Shown here: positions 456 to 10,181 of the stretch, one piece after another
Position numbering within the stretch: position 1 is the stretch's first letter
Layout of the letters: the number at the start of each line of letters is the position of its first letter
Assembly (NCBI GenBank): GCA_029567505.1
Contig: JAKPXO010000239.1
Coordinates: 1-33,292, forward strand
Reading direction: 5' to 3'
DNA from: Acidobacteriota bacterium
GTDB taxonomy: Bacteria > Acidobacteriota > Thermoanaerobaculia > UBA5066
DNA: 33,292 nucleotides
The notes under the pieces: model-generated
Database searches by the model: none
Seen by the model: only the letters and a program-made list of their open reading frames with translations
Told to the model about the DNA's origin: nothing
Translations under genes and position numbers: made by a program

Positions 456-523
456 TCCGCCCCGTCGACCCGCCTCCTGGGCGGCCGTTGCCCCTTCGTC
501 GCGGATGGGAGATGCTGATCCGG

Positions 524-2287
524 ATGGTCCGGCGAACGTGCGTTCTGGCGGCGGCGCTCCTCTGGGCCATTCCCGTGCCGCGCACGGCCGAAGGGCAGGA
601 GCCCGCGGCGATACGGGTCGAGCGCCTGCCGGCAAGCCTCGCCGGCACCTGGGAGTTCGCGCTGGGGGACCCGCCCGGCGGGCTCGCGGACCTGGACACT
701 CTCCCGTTTCGCCCGATCGCCGTGCCCGGGAGCTGGCAGTCCGCCGGCTTCTCCGGACACGGGACGGGCTGGTACCGGGTCACGCTCGACCTCGATCCCT
801 CGCTCTCGATCGTCCCGCTCGCGTTCACCTGCACGCAGATCCGGGACGCGGACGAGGTCTACCTCGACGGCCAGCCGATCGGCCGGACCGGCGGGTTCCC
901 GCCGGCTTACGACAAGGGGACGGTCGTGGAGCGGATCTACGAGCTTCCCCCGTCGCGGTCCTCGGTCCCGGGACGTCACGTCCTAGCCGTGCGGGTCTAC
1001 AACGCGGGGCCGCGCGGAGGCGGGATCACCGGCACTCCGCGGCTCGAGGCGGTCTCCGCGGCCTTCCACGCCCGGACGATGCGCGAGGCGCCCCGCGCCC
1101 TCCTCGCCGCGGCATTCGGCGCGCTCGGGCTCTTCTCCCTCTTCTTCTACCTGCGCGACCGGGGGCAGTCGGACTTCCTCTTTTTCTTCCTGACGACGAG
1201 CGTCACGGCCGTCCTCATCGTCTCCTGGCTCTCGGTCTGGGCCGTCTTCGGCCTGCCCCTGACGTTCCTCTTTCGCGTCGGGCATGCCGGCGTCTTCGTC
1301 CTGCCGGCGCTCGCCTGGGTCCTCTTCCTGAAGTTCTTCGAGCGTCCGATCGGGAGCCTCCACCGCGTCCTGCTGTCGGCGCAGGTGGTCGGGGCGCTGG
1401 CGTGCCTCCTCTGGCCGAGGCCCGACGACATCTACTACACGTTCCCTCTCGGCGGCCTCCTCGGCGCGGCCGCGTCGGCCGACGTCCTCGCGCACCTCGG
1501 GACGGCGGCGCGTCGGCGCGTCCGGCACGCGCGGTCCCTCCTCGCCGCGGCGCTCGTCGCGGTCCTGGCGGCGGCGTTCGACGTCGCCGGTCTCCTCGCC
1601 CTCGGACTCGGGGCGTCGATCGAGATCGCCCTCTCCGGGCCGGCCTTCTTCCTCCTGATGAGCGTCCTCCTCGCGGCGCTCGCCGACCGGCTGGCGCGTC
1701 TCCGGCTCGCGGCCTCGACCGACCCGCTCACCTCCCTGGCGAACCGGGCGGTCCTCTTCGACCGGATCGGCCTCGAGCTCGCCCGGGCCCGGAGGAGCGC
1801 CCACCCCGTCGCGCTCGCGATCCTCGACCTCGACGGGTTCAAGGGGTTCAACGACCGGCACGGCCACCTGACCGGAGACCGGCTCCTCGTCGCGGTCGCC
1901 GCCGCGATCACGCAGGCGATCCGGGACACCGACCTGGCGGCCCGCTTCGGGGGCGACGAGTTCGTCGTCCTCCTGCCGGAGGCCGACGCGACCCGGGCCG
2001 TCTCCTGTCTCGAGAGGATCCGGGACGGCGTCGCCCGGGCGCGGGTTTCCGGGGCGCGTGACGGGACGACCGTCTCCGCGGGCGTCGCCGTCTTCGACCC
2101 GAACGTGAGGGCGAGCGTGTCCGTCTCGGCCTGGCTGCGCCAGGCGGACACCGCGCTCTACGCCGCCAAGGCCGCGGGCCGGAACCGAGTCCTCGTCGCG
2201 CACGGCGCTCCGCCCGGGGCGACCTCCGCAGAGCGCGTCCCGAGCGACGACGCGTCGATCCGCCGCGTCCCGGGGACGCCGCCGTGA
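524..2287 (+). CDS. Membrane-anchored diguanylate cyclase with extracytoplasmic jelly-roll sensor
   Basis: The protein should make cyclic di-GMP from two GTP in response to an extracytoplasmic signal. With the start chosen here (587 aa) it has a signal peptide (residues 1-24), a beta-rich periplasmic domain (about 30-190) resembling the sugar-binding jelly roll of glycosidases and 7TMR-DISM sensors, about seven hydrophobic segments (190-385), and a C-terminal GGDEF domain. The active-site motif GGDEF is at 476-480 and an intact inhibitory I-site RDTD at 467-470, so it is probably active and product-inhibited. The ATG at 524 has GGGAG 12 nt upstream; ATG 512 and TTG 488 are in-frame alternatives that add 4 or 12 residues. 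Its stop overlaps the GTG of the next gene (GTGA), suggesting translational coupling. Confidence 0.88.
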   Translation: MVRRTCVLAAALLWAIPVPRTAEGQEPAAIRVERLPASLAGTWEFALGDPPGGLADLDTLPFRPIAVPGSWQSAGFSGHGTGWYRVTLDLDPSLSIVPLAFTCTQIRDADEVYLDGQPIGRTGGFPPAYDKGTVVERIYELPPSRSSVPGRHVLAVRVYNAGPRGGGITGTPRLEAVSAAFHARTMREAPRALLAAAFGALGLFSLFFYLRDRGQSDFLFFFLTTSVTAVLIVSWLSVWAVFGLPLTFLFRVGHAGVFVLPALAWVLFLKFFERPIGSLHRVLLSAQVVGALACLLWPRPDDIYYTFPLGGLLGAAASADVLAHLGTAARRRVRHARSLLAAALVAVLAAAFDVAGLLALGLGASIEIALSGPAFFLLMSVLLAALADRLARLRLAASTDPLTSLANRAVLFDRIGLELARARRSAHPVALAILDLDGFKGFNDRHGHLTGDRLLVAVAAAITQAIRDTDLAARFGGDEFVVLLPEADATRAVSCLERIRDGVARARVSGARDGTTVSAGVAVFDPNVRASVSVSAWLRQADTALYAAKAAGRNRVLVAHGAPPGATSAERVPSDDASIRRVPGTPP

Positions 2288-3024
2288 CCGGGAGCGCCGG
2301 GGCGGACGCCGCGCCGGCGCCGCGGGTCCCGGACCGCGTCCTCTTCGACGACGGCTCGGTCCTCGCCCTCGACAAGCCCGCCGGCGTCTCGATGGCGACC
2401 TCTTCCCGACCGGGGAAGTCGGAGGAGGAGGTCGTCTCGCGGCTGCTCGCCTCCTGCGGCCTGCCGGAGACGGCCCCGCGACCGCTCCTCGTCCACCGGC
2501 TCGACGAGGGGACCTCGGGAGTCGTCCTCCTGGCCCGTGACGCCGCGACGCACCGGCGTCTCTCGGAGGCGTTTCAGAAGCGTGCGACGGAGAAGACGTA
2601 CCGCGCGCTCGTCTGGGGGCATCCCGTGCCGGTGCGAGGGGAGACCCGCGCTCCGCTCGGACGCGACCGGAAGGACGGCCGGAAGATGCGCGTCCGGGAG
2701 GAAGGCAAGCCGGCCGTCACCCGATGGACGACGCTTCGCCGGTACGCTTCCGTCGCGGACCTCGAGGTCGCGCCCGAGACGGGCCGGACGCACCAGATCC
2801 GCGTCCACCTCGCGGCGCGGGGACACCCGCTCGTCGGCGACGACCTCTACGGCGGCGGCACGCGCTGGCGCGGCGTCCGCGACCCGGCGCTCCGCGCCGC
2901 CTTCGCGGCCGTGGCGCACCCGCTCCTCCACGCCGCCCGGGTCGTCGTTCCCGCGCTCGGGATCGACGTCGAGGCGCCGCTTTCGGGCGACTACGCCGCG
3001 CTCCTCGGGCTCCTCGCGCGCTGA
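2284..3024 (+). CDS. RluA-family RNA pseudouridine synthase
   Basis: This 246-residue protein isomerises uridine to pseudouridine in rRNA or tRNA. The catalytic block HRLDEGTSG is at residues 71-79 with Asp74 as the essential residue (the usual form is HRLDKDTSG), and RTHQIRVHLA near 168-177 is the second family signature. There is no N-terminal S4 domain, so it belongs to the short RluA/TruC-like group. The GTG start overlaps the upstream cyclase stop by 4 bp. The exact RNA target cannot be assigned. Confidence 0.92.
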   Translation: MTGSAGADAAPAPRVPDRVLFDDGSVLALDKPAGVSMATSSRPGKSEEEVVSRLLASCGLPETAPRPLLVHRLDEGTSGVVLLARDAATHRRLSEAFQKRATEKTYRALVWGHPVPVRGETRAPLGRDRKDGRKMRVREEGKPAVTRWTTLRRYASVADLEVAPETGRTHQIRVHLAARGHPLVGDDLYGGGTRWRGVRDPALRAAFAAVAHPLLHAARVVVPALGIDVEAPLSGDYAALLGLLAR

Positions 3025-3031: not shown

Positions 3032-4267
3032 CTACTCGTAGCGGAGCGCCTCGATCGGGTCGATCGAGGCGGCGCGCAGCGCCGGGTAGAAGCCGGAGAG
3101 GAGGCCGACGGCGCCGGAGACGCCGGTCGACAGGAGGAGGGACCAGAGCGTCACGACGGTCGGCCAGCCGGCGGAGGCGGCGACGACCTTCGCGATGAGG
3201 ACCCCGAGGCCGACCCCGAGGAGGCCTCCGAGCGCGCTCAGCGCGAACGCCTCGACGACGAACTGGACGAGGACGTCCTTTCGACGCGCGCCGATCGCGC
3301 GGCGGATGCCGATCTCGCGCGTCCGCTCGAGGACGGTCGCCAGCATGATGTTCATGATCCCGATCCCGCCGACGAGGAGCGAGATCCCGGCGATGCACCC
3401 CATGACGACGTTGAAGAGACGCTGGGTCTTCCGGCTCTGGGCGAGGAGCGCCTCGGGGACGACGACCTCGAAGTCGGCCGCGCCGCCGTGGAGCCGGTCG
3501 AGGAGGGCTCCCACGAGGCGCGCGGCCTCCGTCGCCGGGGTCCCGTCCCGGAGCTTCACGACGAGCTCGGAGAGCGGGGACTCGAGCGCGTCGCGGTCCA
3601 GCTTGCGGAGGACCGTCGTGAAGGGGACGAAGAGCTCCCGCGCGGTCGACCCGACGGAGACCCCCTGAAACGAGTCGCCGCCCTCGCCCGAGGGAGCGAG
3701 GACGCCGACGACGGTGAGCCAGACGTCGTTCACCTTGACCGTTCGCCCGAGCGCCGGCTCCCAGCCGAAGAGGTCGCGGCGGGCGTCGTCGCCGAGGACG
3801 CAGACCTGGGCGTGCGTCTCCTCGTCCTCCTTCGTCAGGAAGCGCCCGGCGGCGAGCGGCAGCGACACGAGCTCCGCGTGGCGCCACGAGACGCCCGAGA
3901 CGCGCGCCTCGCTCTTTCCGCCCCGCCCCCGCACGCTCCAGGGGTTCACCGTGACGCGCGGGCCGGTGAAGTCGACCCCCGGCACGGCCTCCTCGATCCC
4001 GGCGGCGTCGCGGAGCGAGACGCCGATCGACTTCTTCCGGACCTCCTGGAGCTCGTCGGGGCGGAACTCCTTCGCGCGGACGAGGACGTTCGAGATCCCC
4101 ATCCGCCGGATCATGTCGAGCGCCTGCCGCTCGGCGCCCGCGCCGATCGAGAGCATCGCGATGACGGCGCCGACGCCGAAGATCATCCCGAGCATCGTCA
4201 GGACGGACCGCAGCTTGTGCGCCGAGAGGCTCGCCAGGGCGCGCAGGAGCGACTCGCGAAGGCTCAC
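3032..4267 (-). CDS. MacB/FtsX-type ABC transporter permease (no ATPase domain)
   Basis: This 411-residue inner-membrane permease has the MacB architecture: a first transmembrane helix (about 18-42), a large periplasmic core domain (about 45-275), then three helices (about 287-310, 333-360, 370-393) forming the FtsX domain, with the typical stretch GGIGIMNIMLATVLERTREI and the end DPIEALRYE. It should work by mechanotransmission with a cytoplasmic ATPase and the adaptors encoded just upstream to expel a substrate or lipoprotein. The GTG start overlaps the adaptor's TGA by 4 bp. Unlike MacB itself there is no fused nucleotide-binding domain, and no separate ATPase gene is in this operon. Substrate unknown. 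Confidence 0.93.
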   Translation of the reverse strand: MSLRESLLRALASLSAHKLRSVLTMLGMIFGVGAVIAMLSIGAGAERQALDMIRRMGISNVLVRAKEFRPDELQEVRKKSIGVSLRDAAGIEEAVPGVDFTGPRVTVNPWSVRGRGGKSEARVSGVSWRHAELVSLPLAAGRFLTKEDEETHAQVCVLGDDARRDLFGWEPALGRTVKVNDVWLTVVGVLAPSGEGGDSFQGVSVGSTARELFVPFTTVLRKLDRDALESPLSELVVKLRDGTPATEAARLVGALLDRLHGGAADFEVVVPEALLAQSRKTQRLFNVVMGCIAGISLLVGGIGIMNIMLATVLERTREIGIRRAIGARRKDVLVQFVVEAFALSALGGLLGVGLGVLIAKVVAASAGWPTVVTLWSLLLSTGVSGAVGLLSGFYPALRAASIDPIEALRYE

Positions 4268-5526
4268 GACGCCCCTCCGACGGGGGAGCCGGGCGCGGGC
4301 GACGTGGCCGGCTCGGGCGCCGCCTCCGGGTCGACGAGCGCGACGACGTCGCCCTCGCGCAAGCCCGAGGCGACGGCGACGCGGCCGAGCGCGGTCGCGC
4401 CGAGCGTGACGGGAACGGGCTCGAAGGCCCCCTTCCCGAGCCGGAAGGCGACGGTTTCGCCGCCGCGCTCGAAGAGCGCCTGCCTCGGGACGACGAGGGC
4501 GTCGGCCTCGCCGCCGAGGTCGAGCGTCGCGGCCACACGCTGGCCCGGCTTCATCCGGGCCGGGTCGATCGCGTCGAGCGAGAGGACGGCGCCGAAGTAC
4601 TGGATCGGGACGTTCCGGAGGCGCGGCCGGGCGAGAGCGTCGACCGACTTCACCTTCGCGGGGACGGGCCGGCCGGCCTCGCCCTCGAGCGAGAGCGTGG
4701 CGGGACGTCCGGGCGCGAGCCCTCCGGCGTCCGCCTCGAGGACCCAGACCTCGGCCTCGAGCTTGCCGAGGTCGGGGATCTCCGCGAGCGTCTGGGTGCT
4801 CCAGACGACCTGCCCGACCTGGGGCAGCTCGCCGCGCCAGTTTCGCTTCAGAACGACGATCCCGTCGTGCGGCGCCTTCAGCTCGAGGGCGGCGAGCTCG
4901 CGCTCGGCCTTGTCGATCTTCAGCTGCGCCGTGCGCCCCTCCAGGGCGACGAGCTCGCGGCCCGTCCGCGCGAGGGCCTCGCGCTCCCCCTTCGAGTCGA
5001 CGGCGTGGCGCTCCTTCTGCGTCGCGAGGGAGACGTCGATGTCCGCCTCGATGATCTCGTGCCGGGAGAAGAGCTCCGGGTCGCGGCTCTGGAACGTCTC
5101 GGCGGTCGACCGCTCGTCGCGGGCCTGGTCGGCGTCGCGGCGGAGGTTCGCGATGAGGGCTCCGGCCTCGGCGCGTTCCTTGTCGCCGCGCCGGTCCGCG
5201 GTCGCGCGCTCGGCCCGGCCGTCGGCGAGGAGCTTCGTCGTCTGCGTCGGGTCGAGACGGACGACGACGTCGCCCGCCTTCACGGGCGTCCCGTCCTCGA
5301 TCATCCAGCCGATCTTCAGGCTCACGTCGTTGCCCGGGACGCGGACGGGCGTCGCGTCGACGGCGCGGAGGACCCCCTCGGCGCGAACCGTCCGCTCGAG
5401 CTTCGCCGCCTTCACGACGAACGTCGGGACGCGGGCGTCCGCCGTCCGAGGCCGGAGGAGTCGCGCCCCGAAGGCGGCGGCGGCGAGGAGCGCCGCGGCG
5501 AGGGCGACGAGGGCGCGCCGTCTCAC
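4264..5526 (-). CDS. HlyD/MacA-type periplasmic adaptor (membrane fusion protein)
   Basis: The 420-residue protein has an N-terminal membrane anchor (RRRALVALAAALLAAAAFGA), then the split lipoyl domain flanking a coiled-coil-forming helical hairpin: the first half-motif is DGTPVKAGDVVVRLD and the second ELKAPHDGIVVLKRNW followed by GQVVW. A beta-barrel domain and a C-terminal membrane-proximal domain follow. Such adaptors bridge an inner-membrane permease to an outer-membrane channel. The start is the GTG at 5526, which overlaps the upstream TGA (GTGA) and has GGGAG just before it; the longer frame to 5607 would run into the upstream gene. Second gene of a three-gene operon. Confidence 0.9.
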   Translation of the reverse strand: MRRRALVALAAALLAAAAFGARLLRPRTADARVPTFVVKAAKLERTVRAEGVLRAVDATPVRVPGNDVSLKIGWMIEDGTPVKAGDVVVRLDPTQTTKLLADGRAERATADRRGDKERAEAGALIANLRRDADQARDERSTAETFQSRDPELFSRHEIIEADIDVSLATQKERHAVDSKGEREALARTGRELVALEGRTAQLKIDKAERELAALELKAPHDGIVVLKRNWRGELPQVGQVVWSTQTLAEIPDLGKLEAEVWVLEADAGGLAPGRPATLSLEGEAGRPVPAKVKSVDALARPRLRNVPIQYFGAVLSLDAIDPARMKPGQRVAATLDLGGEADALVVPRQALFERGGETVAFRLGKGAFEPVPVTLGATALGRVAVASGLREGDVVALVDPEAAPEPATSPAPGSPVGGAS

Positions 5527-7742
5527 GAGGCGGCTCCCTTCGGGGCCGGGCGCGCGACGCGCAGGACGGCGTTCCCTTCGGTGAGGCCGGAGAGGACCTC
5601 GACCCACTCGCCGTTGCGCCGTCCGACCTTCACGGCGACCGGCCGGGCGCCGCTCCCACGCGGGACCCAGACGAAGGGACCGGCCTCGGTCGGGACGACC
5701 GCGTCGGCCGGGACGGCGAGGGCGCGCGCGACGCGCCCGGTCTCGACGTGGCCGCGGACCCGCATCCCCGGCTTCATCTTCTTCGGGTCGACCTCCTCGA
5801 GCACGACGGAGAGGCGAGCGACCTTGAGCGGAACGGAGGGCGACGCGCGCTGGACCGTCCTCTGGATGCGAAGCACCTTTCCCCGGACCTCGGAGTCGGG
5901 GTGGGCGTCGAGGCGGAGCGAGACGGCCGCCCCTTCGCGGACGAGACCGGCGTCGGCCTCGTCCACCTCGCCCTGCACCCCGAGGCGGGCGAGGTCGGGG
6001 ACCTCGAGGATCTTCTCGCCGTACCAGCAGCGGTCGCCGACCTTCTTCTTGTCGCCGTTCCAGCTCGGGATGAGGAGGACGGTCCCGGCGCGCGGAGCGG
6101 GCACCGTCATCTTCCCGATCGCCGTCGTCAGCTCTCCGGCCCGGAGCGCGGCGCGGCGCCGGCGCCCCTCGAGGATCGAGAGCTCGGCGCGGGCCGCGCG
6201 CTCGGCCGCCTCGAGGCGGCGCGTGACGGAGGCCGACTCCGCCTCCGCGAGCGCGAGGTCGAGGCGCGCCTTCGTCAGCTCGATCGCGCCGGAGATCTCG
6301 GGCGGGACGTCGACCTTCAGCGCGGCCTTCGCGCGACGCGCCTCGGCCTGCGCCTTCTGCAGCTCGAGGTCGGCGCGGGCGAGCGCGAGCGTTCGGCGGC
6401 GGCGCTCGATCTGCTTCCCCGCCGACTCGGCCTCCGCCCGCTTCTCCTCGAGCTGCTGGGAGAGCGCGGTCGTGTCGAAGCGGAGGACGGGCTGGCCCTT
6501 CTTCACCTCCGAGCCTTCGGCGGCGAGGAACGAGATCCGGTAGTCCCAGACCTCGGGGAGGCGCGTGGGGCCGATCGGCTCGCCGTCGAGCGCCGCCAGC
6601 TCGCCCTTCAGCTCGACGGAGAGGACGAGGTCGCGCATCTCGGCCTTCGCCTGGCGCGCGCTCGCGGGGTCGGGAGGCGGGAGCGGGACGCGGCTCGGGT
6701 CGGCCGCGACGGACCGCGTCGGCGCCGGCGGCGTCTCGACGCGGACGGACATGCCGGGCCGGAGGCCGTCGAGCTCCCCGCCGGTGACGTCGACCTGGAC
6801 GCGAAAGGCCATACGCGGCGAGCCGCGTCCGATCGGCTGCGCGACCGGCGCGACGGAGGCGACCCGGGCCGGGAGACGGCGGTCGGGGAAGGTGTCGGGG
6901 ACGACGACGGCGGCGTCGCCCGCGCGGACCCGGCCGTCGTCGACGTCGAAGAGGAGCGCGTCGACCCGAAGCGCCCCGGGGTCGGGAATCCGCGCGAGCG
7001 CGAGGCCGGGCCAGAGCGTGTCGCCCGTCAGGAACTTCTTCCGCTCGCGCGGGTTCTCGGCGACGACGAAGACGCCGTCCTTGGGCGCGTGGAGGGTGAG
7101 GGCGGCGACCGCCGCCTCCAGCTTCTCGCGCTCGGCGCGGGCCCGCTCCAGCGCGATGAGCTTCGTGGCGCGATCGGCGTCCGCGGCCGCGCTTGAGCCG
7201 GCGAGCTCCTCCCCGGCCTTCGCGAGCTCCGTCCGCGCGCGGCGGAGCGCGAGCTGCTTCTCCTCGTGGTCTCGCCGCGAGCGGAGCTCGGCGGGGAGGT
7301 CGGCGTCGAGGCGGGCCTTCTCGAGGTCGGTCGTCCGGGCGCGGACGGCCTGCTCGCGCCCGAGCTCCGCCACCTCCCGGTCCGCGTCGAAACGGACGAG
7401 CTCGGTCTCCGCCTCGATCGCGGCGATCCGCTTCTGCTCGAGCTCGGAGGCGAGGTTCCCCGCGTCGAACTCGGCGACCCGGTCGCCCGTCTTCACGAGC
7501 GCGCCGTCCTCCTCGAGGAAGCGGAGCTGGAGCTCCCAGAGCGGCGTCTCGGGGACGAAGAGGTCGGCCGACCGGACCGCGGCGAGCTCGCCGGTCAGGA
7601 GCAGTGTCCCGGAGCCGGCGGTCGGAGGCGCCGTGCCGGGACCATCGCCGGCCCGGGCGCCGCGGCAGCCCGAAAAAACGCCCGCGGCAGCCAGCAGGAG
7701 AACCGCCGCGGGCGCGAGGAGGGAGAGTCGTCCCCGTTTCAT
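5523..7742 (-). CDS. Lipoprotein with two fused HlyD-type adaptor modules
   Basis: At 739 residues this is about twice the usual adaptor length because it contains two complete modules. A lipobox ends in FSGC, with Cys26 the predicted lipidation site. Module one (about 46-338) has lipoyl half-motifs EEDGALVKTGDRVAEFD and LHAPKDGVFVV around a charged helical hairpin. After a Pro/Ala-rich linker (339-366), module two (about 367-739) repeats the plan with AAEGSEVKKGQPVLRFD and VPAPRAGTVLLIPSWNGDKK. Module two resembles the separate adaptor encoded next more closely than module one does, judged by eye. The ATG at 7742 starts the signal peptide; upstream in-frame codons lie inside the divergent glucanotransferase gene and are a shadow. 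First gene of the operon. Confidence 0.88.
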   Translation of the reverse strand: MKRGRLSLLAPAAVLLLAAAGVFSGCRGARAGDGPGTAPPTAGSGTLLLTGELAAVRSADLFVPETPLWELQLRFLEEDGALVKTGDRVAEFDAGNLASELEQKRIAAIEAETELVRFDADREVAELGREQAVRARTTDLEKARLDADLPAELRSRRDHEEKQLALRRARTELAKAGEELAGSSAAADADRATKLIALERARAEREKLEAAVAALTLHAPKDGVFVVAENPRERKKFLTGDTLWPGLALARIPDPGALRVDALLFDVDDGRVRAGDAAVVVPDTFPDRRLPARVASVAPVAQPIGRGSPRMAFRVQVDVTGGELDGLRPGMSVRVETPPAPTRSVAADPSRVPLPPPDPASARQAKAEMRDLVLSVELKGELAALDGEPIGPTRLPEVWDYRISFLAAEGSEVKKGQPVLRFDTTALSQQLEEKRAEAESAGKQIERRRRTLALARADLELQKAQAEARRAKAALKVDVPPEISGAIELTKARLDLALAEAESASVTRRLEAAERAARAELSILEGRRRRAALRAGELTTAIGKMTVPAPRAGTVLLIPSWNGDKKKVGDRCWYGEKILEVPDLARLGVQGEVDEADAGLVREGAAVSLRLDAHPDSEVRGKVLRIQRTVQRASPSVPLKVARLSVVLEEVDPKKMKPGMRVRGHVETGRVARALAVPADAVVPTEAGPFVWVPRGSGARPVAVKVGRRNGEWVEVLSGLTEGNAVLRVARPAPKGAAS

Positions 7743-7805: not shown

Positions 7806-9325
<1,520 letters not shown>

Positions 9326-9332
<7 letters not shown>

Positions 9333-9345
9333 GGCGCCTCAGCCC
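9326..9345. terminator. Perfect 20-bp palindrome containing both convergent stop codons
   Basis: GGGCTGAGGC (9326-9335) is followed directly by its reverse complement GCCTCAGCCC (9336-9345). The plus-strand TGA (9330-9332) and minus-strand TGA (9341-9339) lie symmetrically inside it. It is probably a bidirectional terminator; there is no U-tract on the plus strand beyond CTTCG. Confidence 0.55.
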
Positions 9346-10181
9346 TTCGCCTTCCGCGACCCGTTCCGCTTCGTCTGGAGGCGGAGGTGCTTCACGGCCC
9401 GGGCCGGCGCGATGCCGTCCCCCCAGCGCTCCCGGAGCGCGTGGAGGTGGCGGGCGACGAAGAGGTAGAGGTCCGCCTCGGTCCTCCCGGGGAAGTCCGC
9501 GAGGACGCCGCTCGCGCGGATCGTCTCGGTCATCGGCCGGAAGAACGTCTCGTACCAGGAGCGGACCGCCTCCTCCCAGGACGTGCAACGGGAGAGCTCC
9601 AGGCCGAGGAAATAGCGATGGACCGCGACGTGCTCGAGCATTTCCGCGTAGTCGCCCGGGTGCGTCACCCGGAACTCGTCGGGAGAGGACGGGACGAGGC
9701 CGGTCGCCTCGAGGAAGTCGGCGAGCCCCTCCTTCCGGAGGACGTCCTCGAGCGAGGCGTCGGGGCCGAGCGGGACGGGAGTGAGGAACTCGAGGACGTG
9801 CGCCTCGATCGTCCGCGCGCCGAGCGAGCGGGCCACGGAGACGCGGTGGTGGCCGTCGACGGCGAAGTAGGCGTTCCCGACGAGGTAGAGCTCGACGGGA
9901 GGGAACCCCGCGGCCCCTTCGGCGAGGTCCTTCACGTCCTCCCACCGCTCCCGGAGCGACTCGGATCGCGGCAGGAAGACCCGGTTGAACTCGCCGCGCC
10001 GTCCGAACGTCCCGACGATCTTCTCGAGCGGCACGTCGGACGTCCCGCGGTCGACGACCCGGCGGAGCTTGAGGCGGTCGCGGACCTCCTCGAACGGGAG
10101 GAGGTCCGCCGGTCGCCGTCTCACGACGGCGAGGAGGTCGTGCACGAGAGCCCCGAGCCGGGCCCCGTCGAAGCCGCTCAC
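9339..10181 (-). CDS. ParB/sulfiredoxin-fold domain protein
   Basis: The 280-residue soluble protein contains a ParB-like nuclease/CTPase-fold motif, [17 protein letters not shown], at about residues 106-122, preceded by a helical region and [11 protein letters not shown], which resembles the 'VPLDKIVGS' lead-in of ParBc domains. The C-terminal half contains the motif [16 protein letters not shown] near 230-245, seen in some ParB-like regulators and universal-stress-type fusions. There is no helix-turn-helix that I can see and no parA nearby, so a role in chromosome partition is unlikely. The start is a GTG at 10181 with GGAGG 5 nt upstream. It sits alone on the minus strand between two glucan enzymes. 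Function unknown; a regulatory role is a guess. Confidence 0.75.

Follow-up and report, generated by a model that had tools for sequence, protein, structure and literature searches.

How could an operon that encodes three adaptor modules, one MacB-type permease, and no ATPase make a working exporter? The operon that raises this question lies on the minus strand of the window, by which we mean the whole 33,292-nucleotide stretch analyzed here, which is contig C468 of an Acidobacteriota genome (G000) assembled in 532 contigs. The first-pass annotation had described a 739-residue lipoprotein, a second adaptor, and a permease with 4-bp overlaps, and our coordinates agree: a predicted lipoprotein of 739 residues in which two adaptor modules, M1 and M2, are fused (P0001, 5523..7742), a single adaptor of 420 residues, A3 (P0002, 4264..5526), and a MacB/FtsX-type permease of 411 residues (P0003, 3032..4267), overlapping at 5523..5526 and 4264..4267. 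The operon is indeed closed on both sides, by a convergent RluA-like gene (2284-3024, plus strand) ending 7 bp from the end of the permease gene, and by a divergent MalQ-like gene (plus strand, ATG at 7807), both named from their translations only. We found no ABC ATPase on the contig and no OEP gene within the operon. Elsewhere in the window, and again judging by translation only, positions 488-2287 (plus strand) encode a GGDEF-type protein with an N-terminal sensor and a membrane region, and positions 9339-10181 (minus strand) a protein with a ParB-like domain, between MalQ-like and alpha-amylase-like genes.

Both adaptor proteins have the lipoyl domain, alpha-hairpin, and beta-barrel of HlyD/MacA-type adaptors according to Pfam and to AF2 models. 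Pfam finds two matches each to HlyD_D23 and HlyD_3 in P0001 and one set in P0002. The AF2 model of P0001 (14-row input alignment, pLDDT 81.1) places the two lipoyl-hairpin-barrel sets at residues 47-337 and 364-678. In the gene, M1 spans 6729..7607 (hairpin residues 95-147/156-214) and follows Cys26 (codon 7665-7667) of the predicted lipoprotein, while M2 spans 5562..6653 (hairpin 425-477/486-544). The Pro/Ala-rich linker at their junction occupies 6654..6728, and residues 340-354 within it have a pLDDT under 50. An MPD is common in RND/MacA-type adaptors and absent from some HlyD types. P0001 has a single one, at residues 690-727 after the second set, and M1 ends at its barrel in the model and in the alignments. 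Hence the earlier description of two complete HlyD modules holds for the lipoyl-hairpin-barrel sets and is slightly too strong for the MPD, which M1 lacks and its unfused homologues have. A3, described earlier as a normal adaptor, is one: its model (pLDDT 85.5) shows four domains, with a hairpin at 94-147/155-213, preceded by a predicted N-terminal helix (residues 3-22). The best fold match of the adaptors is MacA within MacAB-TolC. M1 and M2 of the window align with a score of 256 against a maximum of 74 for shuffled sequences, a duplication far beyond chance. All three pairs (M1/M2, M1/A3, M2/A3) are 32-33% identical across 280-358 aligned residues, and their pair scores (221-366) are set against shuffled maxima of 74-89.

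The permease carries MacB_PCD and FtsX domains and no ABC_tran, as had been read from its sequence, and the MacB model PRK10535 matches it only over model positions 253-646, the N-terminal NBD that fused MacB carries in the same chain being absent. The operon thus shares with MacAB-TolC the HlyD/MacA-type adaptor modules and the MacB_PCD/FtsX permease, but differs in having an unfused NBD, three adaptor modules instead of one, an unlinked ATPase and OEP gene, and adaptor tips without the RLS motif. Acidobacteria are also known for the 'orphan' permeases of the ADOP family (TIGR03434), a family of duplicated permeases. P0003 resembles them as a MacB-type permease without an adjacent ATPase in Acidobacteriota, but it is not duplicated, and its score of 140.9 with this model is below the curated cut-off of 622.3.

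The first-pass annotation had proposed a search for homologues with the same double-module architecture, and such homologues exist in a narrow range. Among 100 relatives searched with P0001, long fused matches are confined to five genera (g1, g4, g5, g6, g7) of the family of the window, f1. Elsewhere in the class, and also in G012 of f1 itself, each half of P0001 matches a gene of its own, the two genes being neighbours. The arrangement itself is much more widespread. The order M1-M2-A3-permease is found in the 33 class loci with all four parts (tblastn, fetched regions), and wherever the contig of a class locus extends far enough, A3 accompanies M1-M2. Across the phylum, 74 of 297 genomes give a match with E 1e-25 or better (some of these are partial and more weakly related), and the cassette is present in most of the 20 outgroup loci. 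The cassette M1-M2-A3-permease is kept across Acidobacteriota.

A tree of M2 puts every fused member in one clade (97/85) and leaves the unfused G012 outside, so that a single fusion is the simplest history: judging by the sequences, M1 and M2 would have been joined once, inside f1. Where M1 is a separate protein, a Cys in lipobox-like surroundings lies close to its N-terminus, and its C-terminal MPD contains two Cys that are invariant in 8 sequences (C373 and C378 in the L074 protein); separate M2 proteins carry a hydrophobic N-terminal anchor. The fused proteins end M1 at its barrel, and M2 begins behind the Pro/Ala-rich linker. The fusion removed the MPD of M1 and the N-terminal transmembrane anchor of M2, and the linker occupies their place. 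The Cys pair in the MPD of unfused M1 (L074, L079, L073, and others) could form a disulfide; the fused proteins lack this pair along with the MPD. A natural fusion of two ABC-exporter adaptors has been described before, in DSY0927 of Desulfitobacterium hafniense (PMC4338810, PMC4446572). It too places two adaptor modules of an ABC-type exporter in one chain, but its N-terminal half lacks a coiled coil, whereas P0001 retains both hairpins in full and has lost the first MPD. Considering that DSY0927 belongs to another phylum and that fusion occurs here within one family only, the two fusions probably arose independently.

The first reading had left room for homologous operons with an ATPase that was deleted locally here. 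Such operons exist: a MacB-type ATPase adjoins the cassette in nine examined genomes, all from families other than f1. It immediately follows the permease on the same strand in five genomes of the class (G040, G076, G081, G083, G089; families f13, f15, f9) and lies upstream of the adaptors in three outgroups (G103, G131, G143; f19, f39), and downstream of the permease in a fourth (G147, f34). Two ATPase matches were not counted as linked: the one at L070 is ABC-F like, and the one at L080 is importer-like and on the opposite strand. The deletion does not hold, since most of the examined genomes likewise lack an ATPase at the cassette, as a conserved state. We therefore reject an assembly artefact or local deletion as the source of the fusion or of the missing ATPase. 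Although the genome is fragmented, the same arrangement recurs in several genera and many separate assemblies, and the convergent RluA-like gene leaves only the 7 bp mentioned above.

Which ATPase might then serve this permease? A profile built from the five class-linked ATPases was searched against G000. Its best match is at C32:8983-9663, with 369 bits (next 322), within a gene at C32:8929-9666 that is thus the closest relative of the linked ATPases in this genome. Twelve matches exceed 200 bits, and the one on C32 is alone in having no MacB_PCD permease on its contig, which makes it the orphan MacB-type ATPase that the first-pass annotation had suggested looking for. It belongs to a minus-strand locus (L166, C32:8929-12132) of an OEP, a Yip1-domain protein, and the ATPase, without adaptor or permease; the Pfam match for the OEP was made on the G007 orthologue, which is 65% identical. 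On its other side, loci of this type have a pair of oligopeptide-type ABC ATPases in many genomes. In YknWXYZ of Bacillus, W is a Yip1-type protein, X the adaptor, Y the ATPase, and Z the permease. The C32 locus is reminiscent of this system by its Yip1-domain protein and ATPase, as is the encoding of ATPase and permease in separate genes (PMC8277102). YknWXYZ differs in that here the adaptors and the permease are at another locus, an OEP gene is present, and there are three adaptor modules; in G000 the components are not in one operon but split between C32 (OEP-Yip1-ATPase) and C468.

In f1, the C32-type ATPase lacks a neighbouring permease, and also an adaptor, in every genome with readable context. 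In f14, the OEP-Yip1-ATPase locus has neither adaptor nor permease in the cassette-bearing G073 and G091, which is not so in the cassette-less G070. The related ATPase is accompanied by its own adaptor and permease in f8, f12, f7, f16, f6, f10, and others, so it may be dedicated there, and stands beside an adaptor only in the outgroup families f41, f78, f49, f31, and f24. No further profile match above 314 bits occurs in the five class genomes that carry a linked ATPase. G131 has both a linked ATPase and a TolC-locus ATPase, so the exclusivity is not absolute. We also considered a strict co-occurrence of orphan ATPase and cassette and discarded it, since f1 genomes without the cassette carry the orphan as well.

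In a tree of the ATPases (73 rows), the linked ATPases of f13, f15, and f9 are nested in a clade (100/97) that also holds f14 orphans and ATPases of OEP loci, and that of f34 in a 100/80 clade with the adaptor-only ATPases; the linked trio of f19 and f39 is separate from the other linked ones. The f1 orphans group with those of f2 and f3 (98/77), the clade of f1 ATPases contains zero linked cases, and the deep branches are weakly supported. A smaller tree had united linked and unlinked ATPases in a single clade with good support; in the 73-row tree this holds for parts only. The pairing of the f1 orphan with the permease therefore draws on common features of locus structure, on the rank of this ATPase in the profile search, and on the lack of another free ATPase, and not on a linked case in f1. 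Because the linked genomes are few and related, the contrast between linked and unlinked states may come down to three or four independent events.

The same genomes contain a second exporter without an ATPase. An adaptor gene followed by two MacB-type permease genes (tP1-tP2), with no neighbouring ATPase, is found in G005, G006, G008, G035, and G073. This operon lies at contig edges in G000 and G001; in G000 one part (L226) is at C227:4-2966 on the minus strand and the other at C486:1-933, and neither contig gives an ABC ATPase match. In several other families, a comparable set of one adaptor and two permeases does come with an ATPase. Of 14 f1 genomes, 13 have tP2 (G010, 77% complete, is the exception); none of the five class genomes whose ATPase is linked to the cassette gave a tP2 match. 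At L224 (G008:C9, 2501-6603, plus strand), further permease, OEP-like, and adaptor matches lie beside the tandem-permease operon. A second ATPase-less operon in the same genomes favours one ATPase common to both exporters, in line with the first-pass view of an ATPase that is unlinked or shared: by these genomic arguments, the C32 ATPase is probably that common motor. We would expect the observed pattern if the ATPase stays separate where it has a second client and becomes linked where it has none, with the reservation that the independent events are few and that G131 is an exception. NBDs that several importers have in common are known, and a multitask ATPase has a parallel in MsmX, one NBD proposed to work for several transporters (PMC7658222). 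MsmX serves type I importers, while here the motor would be shared by MacB-type exporters.

The C32 ATPase could instead be dedicated to tP1-tP2, with the three-adaptor permease borrowing another MacB-type ATPase of G000, e.g. one with a different permease. The orphan is kept in f1 genomes that lack the cassette and have tP2, which suggests that tP1-tP2 may be its main client, and 11 other MacB-type ATPases of G000 exceed 200 bits. We nevertheless consider this arrangement unlikely: each of these 11 has its own permease on the same contig, and cassette-linked ATPases elsewhere are closest to the group of OEP-Yip1-locus and adaptor-only ATPases, not to the 11 paralogues, with the upstream-linked trio (f19, f39) outside.

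What would three adaptor modules build? The predicted hairpin helices have 53/59 residues in M1 and M2 and 54/59 in A3 (AF2), and this same predicted length is compatible with all three standing in one six-membered ring. In TriABC-OpmH, different adaptors are encoded together and both are required (PMC4338810); that system is an RND pump with two adaptors, while here an ABC permease comes with three adaptor modules. Two M1-M2-A3 trios would suit the permease, for which a dimer is expected. A hexamer made of three double-module chains, as the first-pass annotation had proposed, with A3 acting separately, would be compatible with the proposed ATPase; AcrA fused in tandem does function, and RND pumps as a rule have three adaptor dimers (PMC4446572, PMC4338810). 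We find that composition doubtful given the expected permease dimer, the constant company of A3 in class loci, and the equal hairpins. The conserved trio and the equal hairpins fit a ring of two double chains and two single adaptors at least as well as one of three double chains.

The RLS motif, which serves TolC docking, is missing from nearly all tips of these hairpins. We scanned them for the RLS motif as R-x3-L-x6-S, with the spacing of MexA R119/L123/S130 (PMC4446572), in about 60 loci per module, including a few distant ones: it occurs in 0 of 60 M1, 1 of 60 M2, and 0 of 61 A3 tips. In this phylum the motif is present in most adaptors linked to an ATPase, and the adaptors of the tP operon have, by eye, a similar tip without the Leu. 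Together with the lack of an OEP gene in the operon, this could point to a mechanotransmission or envelope-remodelling complex, FtsEX- or LolCDE-like, whose adaptors are no conduit to TolC. We regard such a complex as quite improbable, considering that the long hairpins and lipoyl domains are intact and that the top fold match is MacA of MacAB-TolC. The motif is moreover not universal among known TolC-binding adaptors (PMC4446572), so its absence is a hint and not proof. Docking of M1, M2, and A3 onto the TolC of the C32 locus, or onto any other, is putative.

Our main reading, to which we give a probability of roughly 55%, is a tripartite ABC exporter of the MacB (type VII ABC) class, split between loci, in which the C32 ATPase drives P0003, most likely tP1-tP2 too, and M1, M2, and A3 form a ring. 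A permease homodimer would be powered by the unlinked ATPase at G000:C32:8929-9666, encoded next to a Yip1-domain protein and an OEP/TolC-type channel; the same ATPase would most likely also power the tP1-tP2 exporter of contigs C227/C486. The periplasmic ring would contain, most simply, two copies each of M1, M2, and A3, giving six members matched to the two-fold permease, with M1 and M2 covalently joined in f1. The function would be efflux. More tentatively, and as a possibility only, all of these features may hold at once: one MacB-type ATPase with a TolC-type channel as the shared motor of two ATPase-less exporters, one of which has a hetero-hexameric 2:2:2 adaptor ring matching its permease dimer, with two modules fused in one family.

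Natural and engineered double adaptors as well as two-adaptor pumps have been described (PMC4338810, PMC4446572, PMC8277102, PMC13328181). Our literature search, limited mostly to freely available papers, found no publication on a three-adaptor cassette or a shared MacB-type ATPase. The system is real, conserved, and unusual, and it is built from known parts. If our reading is true, MacB-type exporters, usually seen as self-contained, would be able to run separately encoded permeases on one motor, in the manner of sugar importers. The conserved adaptor trio would be a natural example of an adaptor ring with two-fold symmetry that joins a transporter dimer to a channel trimer, and the family with the fusion would offer a ready covalent link for tests of subunit order.
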